From Streptomyces sp. MMBL 11-1 (GTDB lineage Bacteria; Actinomycetota; Actinomycetes; Streptomycetales; Streptomycetaceae), in assembly GCF_028622875.1 (NCBI RefSeq), contig NZ_CP117709.1, positions 7,815,001-7,879,000 of the forward strand: a stretch of DNA of 64,000 nt, in the 5' to 3' direction. Below are positions 4,397 through 40,017 of the stretch, in pieces. Below the pieces are notes generated by a model, which did no database searches, was not told the origin of the DNA, and saw only the letters and a list, made by a program, of their open reading frames with translations. Within the stretch, counting starts at the first letter, position 1. Each line of letters opens with the position of its first letter. The translations under genes were made by a program, and so were the position numbers.

Positions 4397-7348
4397 CTAC
4401 CGCTCGGCGCGTGCCCCGTTCGGGGCTCCGGAGACGCTGAACTGCGAACCGGGCTCGATCAGTACATGGCCGTCGCGCGAGTCGGTGATCGTCACGTCCG
4501 TGAGCGTCGCGTTGCCGCGCGCGCCGCCCATCGCGAGGATGCCGGATCCGTTGTTGGACTTGTCGATCCGGACGTTCTCGATTCTGACGTCCGGCATCAG
4601 GCCGCCGCCCGTCTTGAACTGGATGCCGTCATAGGTGGAGTCGACGATGTCCGTGTCGCGGATCGTGACGCCGGGGATCGGCAGGTTCTGCGGGAAGAGA
4701 GTGATCGCGCCGAACTCCTGGTCCTCGTTCCAGAAGGCTCCACCGGTGCGGTGAAGGCCGTTGTTGGCGATCAGCGTCCGCCCGGAGAACGGCAGCGGGT
4801 CGTGGTCGGTCGCCAGCATGATGGCCGGGTAGTTCATCGTGTCGGAGATCAGGTTGTTCTCGATCGTGTTGTCGTAACCTCCGTAGATCGCGATGCCGTT
4901 GGCGCGCCACGGAAGCTGGATGGTGTTGTTGCGGAAGCTGTTGTCGTGGCCGATGTCGACGGACTGGTCCTTGACGTACTTGCTGGACCAGACCGCGAGC
5001 GCGTCGTCGCCGGTGTTGCGGAACGACGAGTTGTGGACCGTGGAGTTGCGGGTGCCGTTGGCGAGGTTGATGCCGTCGGCGTAGGTGTTACGGATCCGCA
5101 TGCCGGTGAACTCGACGCCGTCGCCCGGGTTCCACAGTTCCTGGATGTTGGTGTAGTCGCGACCGGCCCAGACGCCCACGTTGGCGTGTTCGATCCAGAC
5201 GTTGCTGATCTTCGTGTTCTTGCCGAACCGGCCGTTGAGCGCGACGCCGCCCTCGTGGTTGCCGTCGCCGCCGCGAATGGTGCCGGAGCCGAAGATGGCG
5301 ATGTCGGAGATTTGCGTGTTGTCGTCGATGTCGAAACCGAAGTTGCCCTCGTGCGGGTGGTTGATCCCGCCCGCCTCGTGCGGCGGCGTGAGGGTGTAGA
5401 GCCGGGAGTGCCACATGCCCGCGCCCCGGACCGTCACGTCACGGATGCCGACCTGGTTCCACTGGCCCCGGTCGAGCGGGTCGTCCGTGAGGATCTTCTG
5501 CTCCTGGCGCCACTGCCCGGCCGGAATCCACACGCAGCCGATCTCACCGCTCTGGTTCGCCGTCACCGCGCGCTGGATCGCGGCCGTGTCGTCGATCCCG
5601 TCGTTCGCCACCGCGCCGTAGGCCGTGATGGACACGCACCCCGAGGGCTGCGACGAGGGCGCCGCCACCTGCTCCAGGTCGATCAGGTCGATGACGTGGA
5701 AGGCGGCGTTGTCGCTCGCGTCCCGCTGGAGACGGAACTTCGTTCCCGCCGGGTAGGTCCGCGTGAGCAGGGCGTGGGACTCGTCGAACAGCCGTCGGGC
5801 GTCGCCGCCGGGGATGTTGGTGAGCCCTTCGGGGCTGTCGGTGTTCCCGTACAGCCAGCTGTGCTTCGAGGAGAGGTCGAGCTTGCGGACGAACTCGCCG
5901 TCGGCGTACAGGCTGATGGTCGTCTCCCGGCCGCCACCGCCCGGCGCGTCCGGAACGGAGTTGCGTACGACGACGGAGTTCGACGGGGCGGTCGAGGTGA
6001 ACTCCACGAACTCACCGGTGGCGTCGAGCCGCACCGACTCGCGGCCGGAGGACTCGGTGGCGAAGTTGGTGTGCCCGAAGGTGCGCTCGGCGTCGGACCG
6101 CAGCAGCGTGCCCCGGTAAGCGGCCTTCTCCGCCTCCAGTTCGGTGTACGGCACGGCCGCGCCGCGTCCGACCACGAGGGAACGGGCGAAGACGTTGTTG
6201 GTCTCGTTGGTCTCCGCCACCTGGTTCGTGGCATCGGCGGTGGCGGTCAGCGTCGCGCCGCCGCTCGCCGCCGTCCAGTTGCCGTCGATCGTGACGTTCG
6301 CGGTCGCGCCCGCGGCGATGGCCGGTGTGGTGCCGTTGAGCGTGGTGGAACCGACGGTCAGGCGGGTGACGGTGCCCGCGTTCACCGCGCTGGTGCCGCG
6401 GTTGCGCACCGTCACGGCGAAGGTGACCGCCGCGCCGACGGCCGGGTCGGCCGGGCTGGAGGCGATGGAGCGGACCTCCAGGTCGGGGCCGGGGCTCTGT
6501 CCGACCACCAGCGGGGAGGCGGTGGTCCGGCTGTTGTTGGCGTTGTCCGACTCGACGACCGTGTCGGTCGGGTCCACCAGCGCCGAGACGGTGTACGAGC
6601 CCTGCGGCCGCTTGCCGACCCCGACCGAGACCGGGGCCGAGGCTCCCGCGGCGAGCGGACCGACCGGCGCGCTGCCCACGGCCACGCCGCCCAGGCTCAC
6701 GTTGACGGTCGTCGCGGGGGAGGGGGCCGAACCGGTGTTGCGGACGGTCCCGTCGATGGTGATGTCGTCCGTCTCGGACGGGGACGAGGGGCTCCAGGAC
6801 AGAGCGCTCACGGTGAGGTCCGGGTGGGGCGCGGCCGTCCCCCGGACCTGGATCTCGCCGATCTGCGCGCCGGGCGCCCCGGTGTTCGCGAAGAACCTGA
6901 GCTGGAGGTCGGCGACCCGGCCGGCCACCGGGATGGTCACCGTGTTCTGGTTGCCGGCCGGGTGGAACGCGTAGCCGGCGCGGGCCCGGAGCGAGGTGAA
7001 CGCGGTGCCGTCCTGGGTCCGTCCGAGCACCTGGATGTCCTGGGTCCGGCTGCCCCAGATCGGATCGGGATTGAGCTTGACCACCACGGACTCCAGGTCC
7101 GCGTCGGCGCCGAGCTTCACCGTGAGGTCGGCCGGCAGCCCGTTCGACTCCCAGTAGCTGTTGACGTTGCCGTCGTTGGCGTTGGCGGCGGAGAACCCAC
7201 CGTGCGACCCGCTGGCGACGACGGGTTTGCCCCGGGCCAGATCGGTGGCCTCAGCCGCGCTCGCGGTCACGGGCAGGAGCCCGACGGAGACCATTGCGGC
7301 TATCAGCAGCCCGGTGATCGACGGTCCGAAGAGTCGTTTCCATCTCAT
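4397..7348 (-). CDS. Secreted multidomain GH87-type glucanase (mycodextranase/alpha-1,3-glucanase-like)
   Basis: The 983-residue protein has a signal peptide (core GLLIAAMVSVGLLPV), a discoidin-type domain (about residues 36-150), two CARDB repeats (about 155-390, with VVESDNANN and VAETNETNN), a further carbohydrate-binding-like domain (about 390-535) and a right-handed beta-helix catalytic domain. In that last domain ADGINLANGT and RNTGDDALAVW give the three aspartates expected for family GH87, which cleaves alpha-1,3-glucans of fungal walls or dental-plaque type. The family call is from motif recognition, and a pectate-lyase-fold enzyme of other specificity is possible. The ATG at 7348 follows AGAGGG; an upstream GTG at 7366 has no ribosome site. 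Confidence 0.8.
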   Translation of the reverse strand: MRWKRLFGPSITGLLIAAMVSVGLLPVTASAAEATDLARGKPVVASGSHGGFSAANANDGNVNSYWESNGLPADLTVKLGADADLESVVVKLNPDPIWGSRTQDIQVLGRTQDGTAFTSLRARAGYAFHPAGNQNTVTIPVAGRVADLQLRFFANTGAPGAQIGEIQVRGTAAPHPDLTVSALSWSPSSPSETDDITIDGTVRNTGSAPSPATTVNVSLGGVAVGSAPVGPLAAGASAPVSVGVGKRPQGSYTVSALVDPTDTVVESDNANNSRTTASPLVVGQSPGPDLEVRSIASSPADPAVGAAVTFAVTVRNRGTSAVNAGTVTRLTVGSTTLNGTTPAIAAGATANVTIDGNWTAASGGATLTATADATNQVAETNETNNVFARSLVVGRGAAVPYTELEAEKAAYRGTLLRSDAERTFGHTNFATESSGRESVRLDATGEFVEFTSTAPSNSVVVRNSVPDAPGGGGRETTISLYADGEFVRKLDLSSKHSWLYGNTDSPEGLTNIPGGDARRLFDESHALLTRTYPAGTKFRLQRDASDNAAFHVIDLIDLEQVAAPSSQPSGCVSITAYGAVANDGIDDTAAIQRAVTANQSGEIGCVWIPAGQWRQEQKILTDDPLDRGQWNQVGIRDVTVRGAGMWHSRLYTLTPPHEAGGINHPHEGNFGFDIDDNTQISDIAIFGSGTIRGGDGNHEGGVALNGRFGKNTKISNVWIEHANVGVWAGRDYTNIQELWNPGDGVEFTGMRIRNTYADGINLANGTRNSTVHNSSFRNTGDDALAVWSSKYVKDQSVDIGHDNSFRNNTIQLPWRANGIAIYGGYDNTIENNLISDTMNYPAIMLATDHDPLPFSGRTLIANNGLHRTGGAFWNEDQEFGAITLFPQNLPIPGVTIRDTDIVDSTYDGIQFKTGGGLMPDVRIENVRIDKSNNGSGILAMGGARGNATLTDVTITDSRDGHVLIEPGSQFSVSGAPNGARAER

Positions 7349-34859: not shown

Positions 34860-35891
34860 TCAGCGGACCGCCGCGACCATGGAAGGTGACGACGCGTCGC
34901 GCAGGAGGAGTCTCGGCTCGGCGGCCGAGGTGCCGACGGGGACGGCCCAGATGTCCGAAGTGCCCTTCGCCCGGCCCGGAAGGGCGTACGCGAGGGTCGA
35001 GTCGTCGAGCCACGCCGCCTGGTCGTCGACGCTGCGGGTCTCGGCGACGGGAGTCTCCCGCATCGTCGCCACGTCCAGTACGTGCAGTCGCCACGGATTC
35101 TCGGCGCCCTCGCGGACCCTCTTCTTGAAGGCGATCCGGGTGCCGTCGGGCGAGAGGGACGGGCATTCGACGTTGCGGCGGAGTGTGCGGGCCTTCCACG
35201 TCCTGATGTCGCCCTCGACGAGATACGTCTTCCCCTTGGTGGCCACCGTCGCGTAGAAGCGGTGGTCGTCCACGAAGGTGACGCCCCAGTAGTTCACGTC
35301 CGGTGCGTGGTAACGCCGCCCCTCCAGGTAGAGCTGGAGGGTCTCCACGTTCTTGACCAGATACCCGGTCCGGGTGTCGAGGATGCCGGTCCTTGTCGAG
35401 AAGGAGGACGAGGCGTACGAGTCGCCGCTGACGAACAGCGTCCAGGCGACCATCCGGCCCGAAGGAGAGACCCGCGCCCGGTTGGGGATGCCGCCGACCA
35501 CGACGGTCTTCCGGGTGTTCAGCTTCCGGTCGAGGACACGCACCTTCGTCTTCTGCGAGATCCCGGGGTGGCTCGCGATACAGACCGCCGACTGTCCGCT
35601 CGCGTAGAAGCGGTCGCACGACAGCCCGGTGTTCCTGCTCCGTGCGTCGTCGGCGCCTCCTCCCGTACCGGAGGGGCTGTACGGCGTCGAGCGCACGCTG
35701 CCCTTCCGTGCCGCGTGGTACAGGCCGGGCGCCTCGTCGAGTGTGAGGCCCGGAGCGGCGACGGACTCCGGCGACCGGCCGTCGCCGTCGGCTGCCGCGA
35801 CCGTGTAACCGACGGCGACGGTCGCCAGTACGGCGGTGGCCGCCGTGAGCGCGGTGATCCGCGCGCGCAGGGAAAGAGGAGGCAGGGTCAT
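34860..35891 (-). CDS. Membrane-anchored beta-propeller (TolB-like) protein
   Basis: The 343-residue protein has an N-terminal hydrophobic segment (residues 13-33, ITALTAATAVLATVAVGYTV) that can be a signal peptide or anchor. The rest has repeated beta-propeller blades: VSPSGRMVAWTLF, CPSLSPDGTRIAFKK and QAAWLDDSTLAYALP, as in TolB/WD40-like six-bladed propellers. Two Cys pairs could form disulfides outside the cell. Function is unknown. The start overlaps the stop of the MFS gene by four bases (ATGA), so the two proteins are probably made together. Confidence 0.75.
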   Translation of the reverse strand: MTLPPLSLRARITALTAATAVLATVAVGYTVAAADGDGRSPESVAAPGLTLDEAPGLYHAARKGSVRSTPYSPSGTGGGADDARSRNTGLSCDRFYASGQSAVCIASHPGISQKTKVRVLDRKLNTRKTVVVGGIPNRARVSPSGRMVAWTLFVSGDSYASSSFSTRTGILDTRTGYLVKNVETLQLYLEGRRYHAPDVNYWGVTFVDDHRFYATVATKGKTYLVEGDIRTWKARTLRRNVECPSLSPDGTRIAFKKRVREGAENPWRLHVLDVATMRETPVAETRSVDDQAAWLDDSTLAYALPGRAKGTSDIWAVPVGTSAAEPRLLLRDASSPSMVAAVR

Positions 35892-37195
35892 GAGGGCTCC
35901 GGGGCGGTTGCGGTTGCGGGGCCGGCGGGCGTGGGCGCGGCCGGCAGGAGTACGCAGGCGAGGGCGAGGACGGCGCCGAGTGACGCGGCGGCCAGGACGA
36001 GGGCGTGGTCCATGCCCCACAGCGTCCAGACGGCTCCGAACCCGACGGACGCGAACAGACGGCCCAGACTCTGGCCCGTCTGCAGCAGTGCCATCCCGCC
36101 CGCGCGCCGGTCCGCCGGCACGACCGGGCCGCCGAGCGCCATGAGGACCCCGTCGGTCGCCGCGTAGAACGTGCCGTGCAGGACGAGTACCAGGATCGTG
36201 AGCGGCCATCCCCCCACCGGGGAGAACAGCGCGACGTACACCCCGAGCAGAGCGACATGCCCCAGCAGGTACGGGACGCGGCGGCCGATCCGGTCGGCGG
36301 CCCGGCCGAAGGGGACGGCGAGCAGGAGATAGACCGCCGCGCTGCCGAGCGGCAGCAGCGGGAAGAACTCCACGTCGAGGGCGAGCCGCTTCTGCAGGAC
36401 CAGGTAGAGGAGTCCGTCGCCCACGCCGACGAGGCCGAGCGCCGTGGCCGCGAGGAGGATCCGGCGGAAGGCGGGGACGTGGAAGAGCCGCAGGGTCTCC
36501 CGCAGTGTGGCCGCGGCCCTGCCGGGCGGGCGCGCCGGTCGGGCCGCGCGGCCGGGGACGAACGCGAAGAGGATCAGTACCCCCAGCAGGCCGAAGCAGA
36601 AGCTGACGACGAAGACCGCGTCGTAGGCGTCGACGGTCGCCCACAGGACGGCGAAGGCGACGAGCGGTCCGAGCATCGCGCCCGTGGTGTCCATGGCCCG
36701 GTGCACCCCGAAGGCGCGGCCGAGGTCCCGCTCGTCGCAGCTCAGTGAGATCAGGGCGTCGCGCGGCGCCGTCCGCACGCCCTTGCCGACCCGGTCGGCC
36801 GCGAGGGCGGTGGAGAGGGCGGGGGTGGAACCGCCCGCGAGGAGCAGGCCGAGTTTGCAGACGGCGGACAGCGCGTAGCCGCTTCCGGCGACGAGCCTGT
36901 GCCGCTGCCAGCGGTCGGCGGCGTGCCCGCCGGCGAGTCTGACGAAGGCGGTGACCCCGTTGTAGAGGCCGTCGAGGAAGCCGAACTGGAGAGGGCTGAG
37001 CCCCAGGCCCAGGACGAGGTAGAGGGGCAGTACGGCGGTGACCATCTCGGACGAGATGTCGGTGACGAGGCTGACCGCGCCGAGCGCGACGACGGTGCCG
37101 GTGAGGCGCCTTCGGCCGGCGGGCCGTACGGCCGAGGGGGACCGGTCGGGGGCGGTTCCGTCCGGCGGACGGGTTCTGCCGACGGCAAGGTACAT
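35888..37195 (-). CDS. MFS transporter
   Basis: The 435-residue protein has about twelve membrane segments with LAGGHAADRWQRHRLVAGSG and ADRVGKGVRTAPRDALIS, a pattern seen in MFS proteins annotated as multidrug or unknown transporters. The substrate cannot be told. AGGAGC lies seven bases before the ATG at 37195. It overlaps the beta-propeller gene downstream, suggesting that the propeller assists transport or senses the same compound; that is inference. Confidence 0.8.
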   Translation of the reverse strand: MYLAVGRTRPPDGTAPDRSPSAVRPAGRRRLTGTVVALGAVSLVTDISSEMVTAVLPLYLVLGLGLSPLQFGFLDGLYNGVTAFVRLAGGHAADRWQRHRLVAGSGYALSAVCKLGLLLAGGSTPALSTALAADRVGKGVRTAPRDALISLSCDERDLGRAFGVHRAMDTTGAMLGPLVAFAVLWATVDAYDAVFVVSFCFGLLGVLILFAFVPGRAARPARPPGRAAATLRETLRLFHVPAFRRILLAATALGLVGVGDGLLYLVLQKRLALDVEFFPLLPLGSAAVYLLLAVPFGRAADRIGRRVPYLLGHVALLGVYVALFSPVGGWPLTILVLVLHGTFYAATDGVLMALGGPVVPADRRAGGMALLQTGQSLGRLFASVGFGAVWTLWGMDHALVLAAASLGAVLALACVLLPAAPTPAGPATATAPEPS

Positions 37196-37274
37196 ACAGA
37201 CGCTCCTGGTACGCGGTGCCCGGAGCTCCGGCTGCACAACCGGTGCTCCGGGCGGCTTCGCAGGCCGGGCACGG

Positions 37275-37299
37275 CCGGCCGCCGGGGCACGGCGGCCGG
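37275..37299 (-). terminator. Hairpin between the three-module enzyme gene and MFS gene
   Basis: CCGGCCGCC and GGCGGCCGG pair around a seven-base loop, 42 bases past the stop of the gene ending at 37341. It suggests that the MFS/propeller pair is transcribed separately. Confidence 0.5.
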
Positions 37300-37340
37300 A
37301 CCACGACGGACGGCGCGGGGGTGGGTGACAGGCGTGGAGA

Positions 37341-39482
37341 TCAGTGGCAGCTGTACGTCGGGCCGGTGTCCAGGACCGTTCCGTCGGTACCGACGAACTT
37401 CGAGGTGAAGGTCGTGTCGGTGAAGTCGAGCTGCATCACGCCGAACTTGTCCCAGATGCGCTTCTGGCTGTTCTTCTGCACGGTGTCACCCTGGCCGTAC
37501 AGGTCCTTGCCGCCCATACCGCCGAGGATCTCGACGATGCCGTTCGGGTCTGCCCGGCCGTCCGGGCTCTGCGGGGCGAAACGCTCGTAGTGGTGGTCGT
37601 GGCCGCTGAGCACCAGTTCGGCGCCGGCTGCCTGCAGCATGGACCAGACCGGCTTGCTCACGGGGTCGTTGCCGTGGCTGCCGGAGCTGAACAGCGGGTG
37701 GTGGAAGTACGCGGCGACGCACTTCTTGCTGTTCTTGGCGAGGTCGGCCTTCAGCCAGTCGAGCTGTTCGCGCTCGTCGAACCGGTTGGAGTTGAGGGCG
37801 ACGAAGTGCCAGTTGCCGTAGTCGTAGCTGTACCACATCTTGCCCTGGGGGGTGGCGCGGTCACCGAAGTACTGCCGGTAGGCGACCTCGTCCTGGTTGT
37901 CCCAGTCGTCGTACGCCTCGTGGTTGCCGGGCACGGGGTGGGTCTTGTCCTTGAACTGGCCCCAGGACTTGTCGTAGTAGTTGCGGAAGTCCTCGATGTG
38001 GGCGTCGTCGTACTGATTGTCGCCCATGGTGATGTAGAAGGCCGGGTCGATCGCCATGGCGCGTGCGGCGGTCTTGAAGTGCTGGCACCCCGGATCGGTC
38101 CGATTGCACCGGTCGGCGATGTCACCGGCACCGACCACGGTGAACGCGCCCTGCGGGGGCGGGTCGGTGGGGGTGGTGCCCCCGGCGGTGCCGTACACGT
38201 CGGCCTCCCACAGGGAGTACCCGTACGTGGTGCCGCGCGCGGTGCCGTACACGCGCAGGTAGCGGCCCTTGCCGGTCAGACCGGTCCAGGTGTCGGTCCC
38301 GCCGTTGCCCGCCGTCTCCGTGGCGAGGCGGGTCCAGTCGGTGCCGTTGGGAGAGATCTCCAGCCGGTACTGCTTCGCGTACGCGGCCTCCCATGTCAGC
38401 TCGACGCGGGAGACGGACGCCCCTTCGCCGAGGTCGATGCGGAGCCACTGCGGGTCCGATCCTTCGGCACTGGCCCAGCGGGTGGTCGCGACGCCGTCGA
38501 CGGCCTTGCCGGGGGTCAGGGTGGAGGTTTCGGACGAGGAGGCGGTGGCGGGCCTGCCACGCGATATCAGCGTCTCGGACCCGGAGGGGTCCGTGGGTTC
38601 CGGGCCCGGCCGGGGGTCGGTGTCGATACGGAAGTCGTCGCCGTAGACGGCCCAGGCCAGTGGCGTGTCGAGGTCGAGATTGCCGTTCCTCAGGAACACG
38701 CGCTGGGCGGTGTCGACACGGCTGGTGTCCTCGTGCGCCGCCTCCTTCTTCATCTCCATGACCCGGGCGTCGAGGAAGGCATCGAGGTACCGGGTTTCGT
38801 CGCCGCCCTCGGCCGGTGTACGGGCGTCGCTCCGGGCCTCGGCGCGGATGCTGTCGAAGCCCGACTGTCCGTGCATGACGATGGCGTCGTAGTAGGCGAA
38901 CTGGCCGAGCACCCGCAGTCCGTCGCTCTTCGCCCGGGATACGGAGGGGTCGAAGTAGACGCGGTCACGCTCGTGTTCCTGGGCCGCGCGGAACTCGGGG
39001 GTGGCCGCGGCCTGCTGCCACGCGGTCGTGAAGCCGGGGTCCAGGCCTTCGTGGGAGTCGCTCCCGTCGACCGCGCGGAGCGCCGGGAGGTACTTGGCCA
39101 GCGGATTGCCCGGCACCTTGCCCGTGTAGTACTCGACGAGTTCGAGCATGTCGTGCGTACCGGAGCAGAAGCCGACGACGCCGGCCGTGTAGCCGCGCCC
39201 GTCGCCGATGTCCTCGATGTAGTCGAACTGCTCGCGCCACTGGAGCGAGGAGTTCTCGGCCGTCGAGACGATCTGCATGGCGATTTCCTTCTTCACCGGA
39301 TCGTCGAGGCCGGAGGCCACGGCCGCCTGTCCGGTGTTGAGGGCGATCACGGCGGGGATCGCGGTCAGCGCCATGGCCAGGGCGATCCGCACGCCGGTGC
39401 GACGTCGGCGGTGCACGGGCCGGGGCGGTCGTTCCGAACGGGAAACGCGCCGGGAAACGCGGTGGGGCATGCGCATGCGCAC
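37341..39482 (-). CDS. Secreted fusion: GH46 chitosanase, discoidin-type domain and metallophosphoesterase
   Basis: The 713-residue protein has a long, Arg-rich signal peptide (hydrophobic core about 31-48). A complete GH46 chitosanase domain (about 59-293) follows: LDDPVKKEIAMQIVSTAENS with catalytic Glu76, and IEDIGDGRGYTAG with Asp94, spaced 18 residues apart as in S. sp. N174 chitosanase. Next is an F5/8-type domain (about 305-440), a TPTDPPPQ linker and a calcineurin-like phosphoesterase (about 455-690) with GDIADR, GDNQYDD, GNHEAY, HHPLF and GHDHHYER. It should hydrolyse chitosan and a phosphate ester outside the cell. The GTG at 39482 has GGAG six bases upstream. Confidence 0.9.
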   Translation of the reverse strand: MRMRMPHRVSRRVSRSERPPRPVHRRRRTGVRIALAMALTAIPAVIALNTGQAAVASGLDDPVKKEIAMQIVSTAENSSLQWREQFDYIEDIGDGRGYTAGVVGFCSGTHDMLELVEYYTGKVPGNPLAKYLPALRAVDGSDSHEGLDPGFTTAWQQAAATPEFRAAQEHERDRVYFDPSVSRAKSDGLRVLGQFAYYDAIVMHGQSGFDSIRAEARSDARTPAEGGDETRYLDAFLDARVMEMKKEAAHEDTSRVDTAQRVFLRNGNLDLDTPLAWAVYGDDFRIDTDPRPGPEPTDPSGSETLISRGRPATASSSETSTLTPGKAVDGVATTRWASAEGSDPQWLRIDLGEGASVSRVELTWEAAYAKQYRLEISPNGTDWTRLATETAGNGGTDTWTGLTGKGRYLRVYGTARGTTYGYSLWEADVYGTAGGTTPTDPPPQGAFTVVGAGDIADRCNRTDPGCQHFKTAARAMAIDPAFYITMGDNQYDDAHIEDFRNYYDKSWGQFKDKTHPVPGNHEAYDDWDNQDEVAYRQYFGDRATPQGKMWYSYDYGNWHFVALNSNRFDEREQLDWLKADLAKNSKKCVAAYFHHPLFSSGSHGNDPVSKPVWSMLQAAGAELVLSGHDHHYERFAPQSPDGRADPNGIVEILGGMGGKDLYGQGDTVQKNSQKRIWDKFGVMQLDFTDTTFTSKFVGTDGTVLDTGPTYSCH

Positions 39483-40017
39483 GTGGGTCTCCGATCTCTT
39501 GCGACATGCCGGACGCCGGACGCACAGAGGCGTCGTGGAGGGCGTACGGACACAGCTCAGCCGGGAGGAAGCTCTATTAGGAAAGTTTCCTTTCCATTGA
39601 GTCGCGTCCATTGGAGCGCGCCGCTCCTCTTCTTGCAAGGGTCATGACAACAACAATCGGAGAGAGGTGGTGCGTCCTGCGGGAGGTCGGGACCGAGCGA
39701 CGCGCACTCGACCGCAGTCTCCCGATGGGGCGGCGCCGCGGACGTGGACGCGGGCGCGCCGAAGCTCTCCGCGTCGCACCGTCTGCCGTACGTGAGCTCG
39801 TTGAGGCCCCATGAGGTCGTGCGTACGGGGGGGTGTCGGCTTCGACGGGGTGGTGTCGGCGTCGACGGGGGCGCCGTCCGTACCGACAGGCGTCAAGGCG
39901 TGACGCTCGCCCCCACTGGCGGAGCGTGAGGATGACGAGAAGGCTGGGGCACGACCTCGGCGTACGGGCGGAGCCCCGACGGGTCCGCCCGCCGCGGCCC
40001 GACGGGGTGTTTTCCGG
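39483..40017. other. Intergenic region upstream of the chitosanase fusion
   Basis: About 530 bases without a convincing gene. It holds the palindrome at 39579 and an imperfect 19-base direct repeat (39832-39850 and 39852-39870, one mismatch). A 67-codon frame at 39611-39814 has no family resemblance and was not called. Confidence 0.4.
39579..39591. promoter_or_regulatory. AGGAAAGTTTCCT palindrome (CsnR-like operator)
   Basis: The 13 bases form a perfect palindrome about the central G, in an AT-rich patch about 100 bases upstream of the chitosanase start. From memory, actinomycete chitosanase genes have similar GAAA/TTTC palindromes bound by the ROK repressor CsnR. No csnR gene is in the window. 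Confidence 0.55.

Follow-up and report, generated by a model that had tools for sequence, protein, structure and literature searches.

A phosphatase gene and its two neighbours, an MFS transporter gene and a TolB-like gene, lie repeatedly behind a chitosan-response operator in related bacteria; this arrangement suggests that phosphate removal is an unrecognised part of the digestion of fungal chitosan. In the window, i.e., the whole stretch of 64,000 nucleotides that was analysed, the phosphatase is joined to a chitosanase domain, and the fusion gene is judged, with slightly better than even probability, to be the first of a chitosan-response operon, whose chitosan-bound protein would remove masking phosphate or polyphosphate and would then cut the chitosan. 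The features of the window concerned are listed below.

39579..39591, no strand assigned: CsnR-box operator, exact AGGAAANTTTCCT, with 96 bp between the box and the GTG start of the fusion gene
37341..39482, minus strand: coding sequence of the fusion protein, a single intact frame from GTG 39482 to the stop at 37341, 713 aa
38658..39275, minus strand: predicted GH46 chitosanase domain, residues 70-275 (Pfam 3e-96), with E76 and D94 present
38205..38549, minus strand: F5/8 C (CBM32) domain, residues 312-426 (Pfam 5e-22)
37344..38144, minus strand: purple-acid-phosphatase-like metallophosphoesterase (MPE) domain, about residues 447-713, with the seven expected metal ligands present
35888..37195, minus strand: MFS transporter, the next gene downstream of the fusion on the same strand, with its reading frame open from GTG 37237
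34860..35891, minus strand: TolB/WD40-like (PD40) protein, 343 aa, with a signal-like N-terminus by eye and an ATG that overlaps the MFS stop (ATGA)

Domain architecture of the fusion protein

The Pfam matches to GH46, F5/8 C and Metallophos follow one another from the N- to the C-terminus, each above its own cut-off. The GH46 match covers the whole model (1-210) with 321 bits against a cut-off of 27, and the nearest PDB sequences of this part, as returned by a PDB sequence search, are the chitosanases 4ILY and 1CHK. In the alignment, E76 and D94 of the fusion are matched by a Glu and an Asp of the Streptomyces N174 chitosanase 1CHK, which we take to be its catalytic residues E22 and D40; moreover, E76, N77, D94, R96, T99 and D111 are invariant in all 14 aligned GH46-phosphoesterase proteins. 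By sequence, the domain is a predicted chitosanase with both catalytic acids. The N-terminus of the protein carries an Arg-rich n-region, a hydrophobic stretch and an AxA-type site near residues 52-56, so that, judged by eye, the protein is apparently secreted.

For the CBM32, all five PDB sequences matched at 1e-10 are modules of Paenibacillus glucanase/chitosanase (best 1.6e-35), which we presume to be the DD1/DD2 modules. The available text of two papers describes chitosan-specific binding by DD1/DD2 modules (PMC4663542, PMC5635096), and the CBM32 of the fusion is, as predicted from these matches, a chitosan-type (DD1/DD2-like) module. Similarly, Kitasatospora setae Csn2 combines GH46 with a DD1/DD2-like CBM32 and a putative CsnR operator; in contrast to the present protein, its CBM32 lies between the signal peptide and GH46, and no phosphoesterase is described for it in the portion of the report available (PMC5635096).

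The Pfam Metallophos match spans residues 478-632 (2e-10) of the MPE domain. Residues D454, D488, Y491, N520, H594, H628 and H630, which we regard as the equivalents of the seven purple-acid-phosphatase metal ligands, with the GDxxY Tyr among them, are invariant in 94/94 sequences. The PDB sequence search places the MPE domain of the fusion nearest to purple acid phosphatases, and the MPE-family profile, when compared with the PDB at 1e-5, matches purple acid phosphatases in 15 of 15 cases. By residue pattern and sequence matches, the predicted MPE domain is purple-acid-phosphatase-like; it shares the GDxxY, GNHE and GHxHxYER motifs and the seven expected ligands with purple acid phosphatases such as PDB 6git, 2qfp and 1qhw, and differs from them in being a bacterial domain of about 270 aa that is attached to a CBM32 and a glycosidase behind a chitosan operator. 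The same evidence bears on the possibility that the substrate is another polyanion on chitosan (nucleic acid, phytate or teichoic acid) instead of polyphosphate. Calcineurin-like folds include phosphodiesterases, and the phosphodiesterase SpdA is matched below threshold (15 bits against a cut-off of 400); however, the invariant ligand pattern with its Tyr and the uniform PDB matches to purple acid phosphatases make such a substrate unlikely.

The initial annotation had placed a GH46 chitosanase with Glu76 and Asp94, an F5/8-type domain and a calcineurin-like phosphoesterase in one open reading frame, a description that is borne out by the Pfam matches, the invariant residues and the intact frame. 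A frame error or assembly artefact is ruled out by the same full-length layout in four further genomes, at 76-95% identity, and the claim of a single gene accordingly stands.

Distribution of the architecture

The layout is not the one-off that it had first seemed, since further cases occur in Streptomyces and in Microbacterium, and a GH5 counterpart exists. The fusion of GH46, F5/8 and Metallophos is found in 12 of the best 120 proteins listed by protein search, the named ones being from Streptomyces and Microbacterium; among the same 120 proteins, one combines GH46 and Metallophos without CBM32 (P0013), and in two GH5 takes the position of GH46. The architecture is thus not unique among sequences; as regards its novelty, the part of the open-access literature that was searched yielded no description of such a fusion or operon. 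A review of GH46 refers, in the part available, to other modules in a supplementary figure.

In 199 genomes of the genus, for which all counts are lower bounds with at most about five candidates scored per genome, the full fusion occurs in at least five, namely the window's own (G000) and four others in which the full-length layout is 95% (G115), 93% (G057), 77% (G103) and 76% (G019) identical to the fusion of the window. A GH46 match is found in at least 149 of these genomes; in the window's genome, the fusion is the sole GH46 gene. CBM32-MPE proteins without a glycosidase are commoner than the fusion (at least 25 loci), and at least eight loci match the phosphoesterase only. Similarly, among the best 80 of at least 550 confirmed loci (named genomes, phosphoesterase alignment), the glycosidase-free CBM32-MPE is the commonest form (66/80). 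The stretches fetched for these 80 named loci hold a GH46 match in 10, a GH5 match in three and a GH75 match in none; as these total 13, 67 of the 80 loci are without a chitosanase-type gene nearby in the stretches fetched.

Two entries of an S. anulatus cluster (P0010 and P0011, 428 aa) are without the GH46 part, P0010 starting in the linker; the intact fusion is present in S. anulatus JCM 4721 (L104), and the GH46 part is lost or unannotated in some strains.

Operator upstream of the phosphoesterase genes

In the available text of the source, the CsnR-box consensus AGGAAANTTTCCT is the operator of the ROK repressor CsnR at actinobacterial chitosanase genes (PMC6097792); the longer S. lividans site contains CTGGTAGGAAACTTTCCTATCAGT (PMC4856308, consulted portion), and the K. 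setae report, as far as available, places CsnR-type palindromes between the putative promoter and the ribosome site (PMC5635096). The box at 39579-39591 is the only site with at most one mismatch in the window, and none appeared in 100 shuffles. The window's genome (8.5 Mb) holds two exact CsnR boxes and one with one mismatch; the second exact box lies 57 bp upstream of a csnR-like gene for a ROK repressor of 407 aa, and the opening of the gene that follows resembles a solute-binding lipoprotein, so that the pair looks, by sequence, like the expected csnR-csnE layout. With a box upstream of the fusion and a csnR-like ROK gene in the same genome, the fusion is a predicted member of the CsnR regulon, which CsnR would bind and chitosan would induce. 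The S. lividans CsnA/CsnR regulon offers the same operator, the same type of repressor and a GH46 chitosanase (PMC3048496, PMC6097792); as described in the accessible parts of these papers, it comprises csnA and csnREFGHK, and a phosphoesterase, an MFS transporter and a TolB-like gene are not named there.

In 30 genomes, at most one mismatch gives 163 boxes against 112 sites of the reversed control; because this genome-wide excess is modest, the signal of the box lies in its position and not in its number. In the genus, a box with at most one mismatch precedes 26 of 30 GH46 loci, which served as the positive control, all five fusions, 22 of 25 CBM32-MPE loci (199 congener genomes) and 8/8 MPE-only congener loci. 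Among the 80 named loci, such a box lies no more than 700 bp ahead of the first domain in 65; by class, it is found in GH46-CBM32-MPE (8/8), GH5-CBM32-MPE (1/1), CBM32-MPE (54/66), MPE alone (2/4) and the Microbacterium double-CBM fusion (0/1). These counts do not represent independent trials, because the loci are related, and the congener and 80-locus sets also overlap in part. The same 688,458 bases outside those promoters contain three boxes, and the reversed pattern occurs there zero times. One of the three precedes a GH5 match by 561 bp (L124), and another, which is exact, precedes an MPE-only match by 718 bp (L145). The third (L160, one mismatch) lies 82 bp before an inverted MFS-TolB pair (4857-7256), which, being inverted, has no access to the phosphoesterase promoter; this is the sole such locus among the 80, and its box points to the MFS-TolB pair itself as a likely member of the regulon.

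The remaining 15 of the 80 named loci have no box at one mismatch or less within 700 bp; nine of them carry a site with two mismatches and six carry none. Within the six, L142 starts too near a contig end, the box of L145 is the distant one already given, and the stretch tested in L116 is not its promoter, because the GH46 sits in another frame; in L130, L152 and L183, the stretch tested has no box even at two mismatches. No good box was found for the Microbacterium fusion L114. In both Microbacterium loci (L114 and L116), neither of which has a good box, a divergent ROK gene lies upstream, and its product is about 45% identical to the csnR-like protein of the window's genome. A wider class sample shows the box in L094-L096 and L098 (same genus) and in L099 (another family), and no box at L097 (same genus) or L100-L103, of which L103 is near a contig end.

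The flanks of the box were analysed in 23 promoters, a thinned set drawn from 67 promoters (those of 66 of the 80 loci and of L099) that had been chosen by their box; conservation inside the box is inflated by this choice, and the flanks are free of it. Outside the 13-mer, positions -6, -1, +14 and +20 carry 1.7, 1.3, 1.3 and 1.4 bits, respectively, against a flank mean of 0.27, as would be the case for a predicted extended operator.

At least 20 exact boxes that do not belong to MPE genes (19 fetched loci and L002) are listed from the 30 genomes; they lie upstream of csnR-like genes (12), GH75 (3), GH46 (2), GH5 (2) and a weakly lyase-like gene (1). The last of these (L073:2001-3083) encodes a secreted-looking protein of 344 aa with a sub-threshold match to PF14099 (polysaccharide lyase), a possible further enzyme of the chitosan regulon by its position. 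The two GH5 enzymes of this list are encoded at L079:800-1933 and L081:2025-3575, one with a CBM35-type module; they are 69-74% identical to the GH5 domain of the GH5-CBM32-MPE fusions, and the nearest solved GH5 by PDB search is an endoglucanase. That these GH5 domains act as chitosanases is a guess made on account of their operator; a GH5_2 chitosanase is on record, attributed to Streptomyces griseus HUT 6037 in the available part of the source (PMC3526467).

Downstream genes and the predicted operon

An MFS gene is present in 77 of the 80 named loci and a TolB-like gene in 78; both loci that lack a TolB-like gene and one of the three that lack an MFS gene are short contigs. The MFS gene is on the phosphoesterase strand in 76 loci, and in 60 of these its frame has a start codon that overlaps the MPE stop. 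Fused lineages have a gap in place of this overlap; in the window, it measures 103 bp if the MFS gene starts at GTG 37237 and 145 bp if it starts at ATG 37195, the latter start being preferred because the L175 orthologue begins MYI. Within this gap, 37238-37340 contains a GC-rich inverted repeat (by eye), which may be an attenuator or a terminator. Co-transcription of the fusion, MFS and TolB-like genes is probable from this gene order. When the reading frames of nine loci were used as probes, no further same-strand gene common to many loci emerged, and the remaining frequent probe matches look like overlapping frames of the MPE, MFS and TolB-like genes.

The box, the MFS gene and the TolB-like gene are kept also in the loci without a fused chitosanase, and for this reason it appears, by sequence, that the phosphoesterase is part of a chitosan-response operon and that chitosanase domains were joined to this operon later. 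The initial annotation had coupled chitosan breakdown to phosphate-ester chemistry within one protein; this coupling is partly supported, inasmuch as the operator also precedes MPE genes without a fused chitosanase, and it is here widened to a putative conserved chitosan-response operon.

The family matches assign no cargo to the MFS transporter, as its best curated NCBIfam matches are far below the cut-off. The second of these is a multidrug-resistance superfamily, and it bears on a distinctly improbable reading, i.e., that a phosphorylated compound encountered along with chitosan, either a toxin or a signal, is removed or exported by the operon and that the fusion is a convenient form of co-delivery. 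Chitosan is toxic to bacteria, and small-molecule pathways are known to place a phosphatase beside an exporter; however, the nearest solved relatives of the CBM32 bind chitosan, which is easier to reconcile with a substrate associated with a polymer.

Proposed role and substrate

In the preferred reading, chitosan oligomers would relieve repression of the operon by CsnR (ROK), and the secreted fusion protein would be anchored to chitosan by its CBM32. The purple-acid-phosphatase-like centre would free the chitosan of zygomycete (Mucoromycota) walls from masking phosphate or polyphosphate, the exposed chitosan would be cut by the GH46 domain, and a product or by-product would be dealt with by the co-produced MFS transporter and TolB-like protein. 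Unmasking of chitosan-phosphate complexes fits because the phosphatase is predicted to be chitosan-anchored and under chitosan control. As stated in the available text of the sources, polyphosphate is named among the major components of Mucoromycota walls (PMC7307774), chitosan-polyphosphoric acid is a better substrate for the CBM32-bearing form of K. setae Csn2 than for the form that has no CBM32 (PMC5635096), and TRAP, a purple acid phosphatase, degrades polyphosphate, preferring shorter chains and being inhibited by long ones (PMC3817253). The inhibition by long polyphosphate counts against polyphosphate unmasking. A more far-reaching form of the preferred reading, whose chances fall somewhat short of even, is that of a conserved chitosan-induced system that dephosphorylates and then cleaves, in which a purple acid phosphatase family would be dedicated to unmasking the chitosan-polyphosphate of Mucoromycota with its own transporter and propeller protein; the protein of the window would be the fully fused form of that system.

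The main rival to unmasking is phosphorus feeding, in which a wall-tethered phosphatase would make the Pi or organophosphates of fungal remains available to the cell and would not expose chitosan; chitosan would merely signal dead fungus nearby, and the MFS protein would import the phosphorylated product. A predicted secreted enzyme of purple-acid-phosphatase type does adjoin an MFS gene, whose best NCBIfam match, far below threshold, is the phosphoglycerate transporter PgtP, and the commonest form, in 66 of the best 80 loci, has no glycosidase. Phytase activity is also recorded, in the part of the paper available, for a soil-derived non-plant purple acid phosphatase (PMC6355987). Against this, the PgtP match reaches 28 bits where the cut-off is 408, and nutrition alone leaves the fusion to chitosanases unexplained. 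Moreover, no tandem PHO-box-like repeat rises above the shuffled background in the window or the 80 loci: by a simple score with a unit that we take to be GTTCACC-like, the window scores 8 against 8-11 in shuffles, and the 80-locus mean is 8.81 against 8.81 when shuffled. The absence of this signal weakens phosphorus feeding without removing it, and we hold it to be rather unlikely.

If the unmasking of chitosan is the true role, the actinobacterial chitosanase regulon includes a phosphatase, a transporter and a propeller protein, none of which is named in the portions of the CsnR literature consulted, and phosphate removal would be a standard, so far overlooked step in bacterial chitosan use. 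It would also give genetic access to a question of wall chemistry, namely whether fungal chitosan is protected against enzymes by phosphate or polyphosphate. Further, it would offer a candidate enzyme for obtaining fungal chitosan free of phosphate, as well as a path along which phosphorus from fungi is released by soil bacteria.

Origin of the fusion

A tree of 95 phosphoesterase-domain rows was built by a quick method with a midpoint root, and some of its inner branches are weak. A further alignment of the analysis (A2) leaves out L103, which has stops in its translation, drops L101, L102, L066, L069 and L072, and adds L036. One side of a fully supported branch holds 20 GH46-fused rows, three GH5-fused rows and two Microbacterium rows without an in-frame GH46; on the other side, no row has GH46 or GH5. 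The GH5-fused forms make up one group inside the GH46-fused part. The GH5-CBM32-MPE proteins L111 and P0024 (both Actinokineospora) and P0022 share the CBM32-MPE of the window's fusion and differ from it in having GH5 where it has GH46; L111 is, moreover, accompanied by an MFS gene and a TolB-like gene and has an operator with one mismatch. The simplest reading of these sequences would be one GH46 fusion and then one swap to GH5 in one lineage; on the tree alone, GH46 must change three times, and a single fusion is not proved by it. The commoner stand-alone phosphoesterase operon is probably the ancestral unit.

The grouping of fused forms also bears on whether the domains were shuffled together by accident without functional coupling, or with a dead phosphoesterase, which is considered very improbable. 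The entries P0010 and P0011 without GH46 and P0013 without CBM32 would suit such shuffling; however, every expected metal ligand is invariant, the operator and gene order are retained in loci without the fusion, the glycosidase-fused forms of Streptomyces, Actinokineospora and Microbacterium cluster in the tree, and the GH5 that replaces GH46 resembles GH5 enzymes behind CsnR boxes.

Distant relatives of the phosphoesterase domain, retrieved with a Microbacterium phosphoesterase as the query and left out of the analysis, lie in long PKD/Ig-type proteins (P0122-P0233), a few of which are named Gemmatimonadales.
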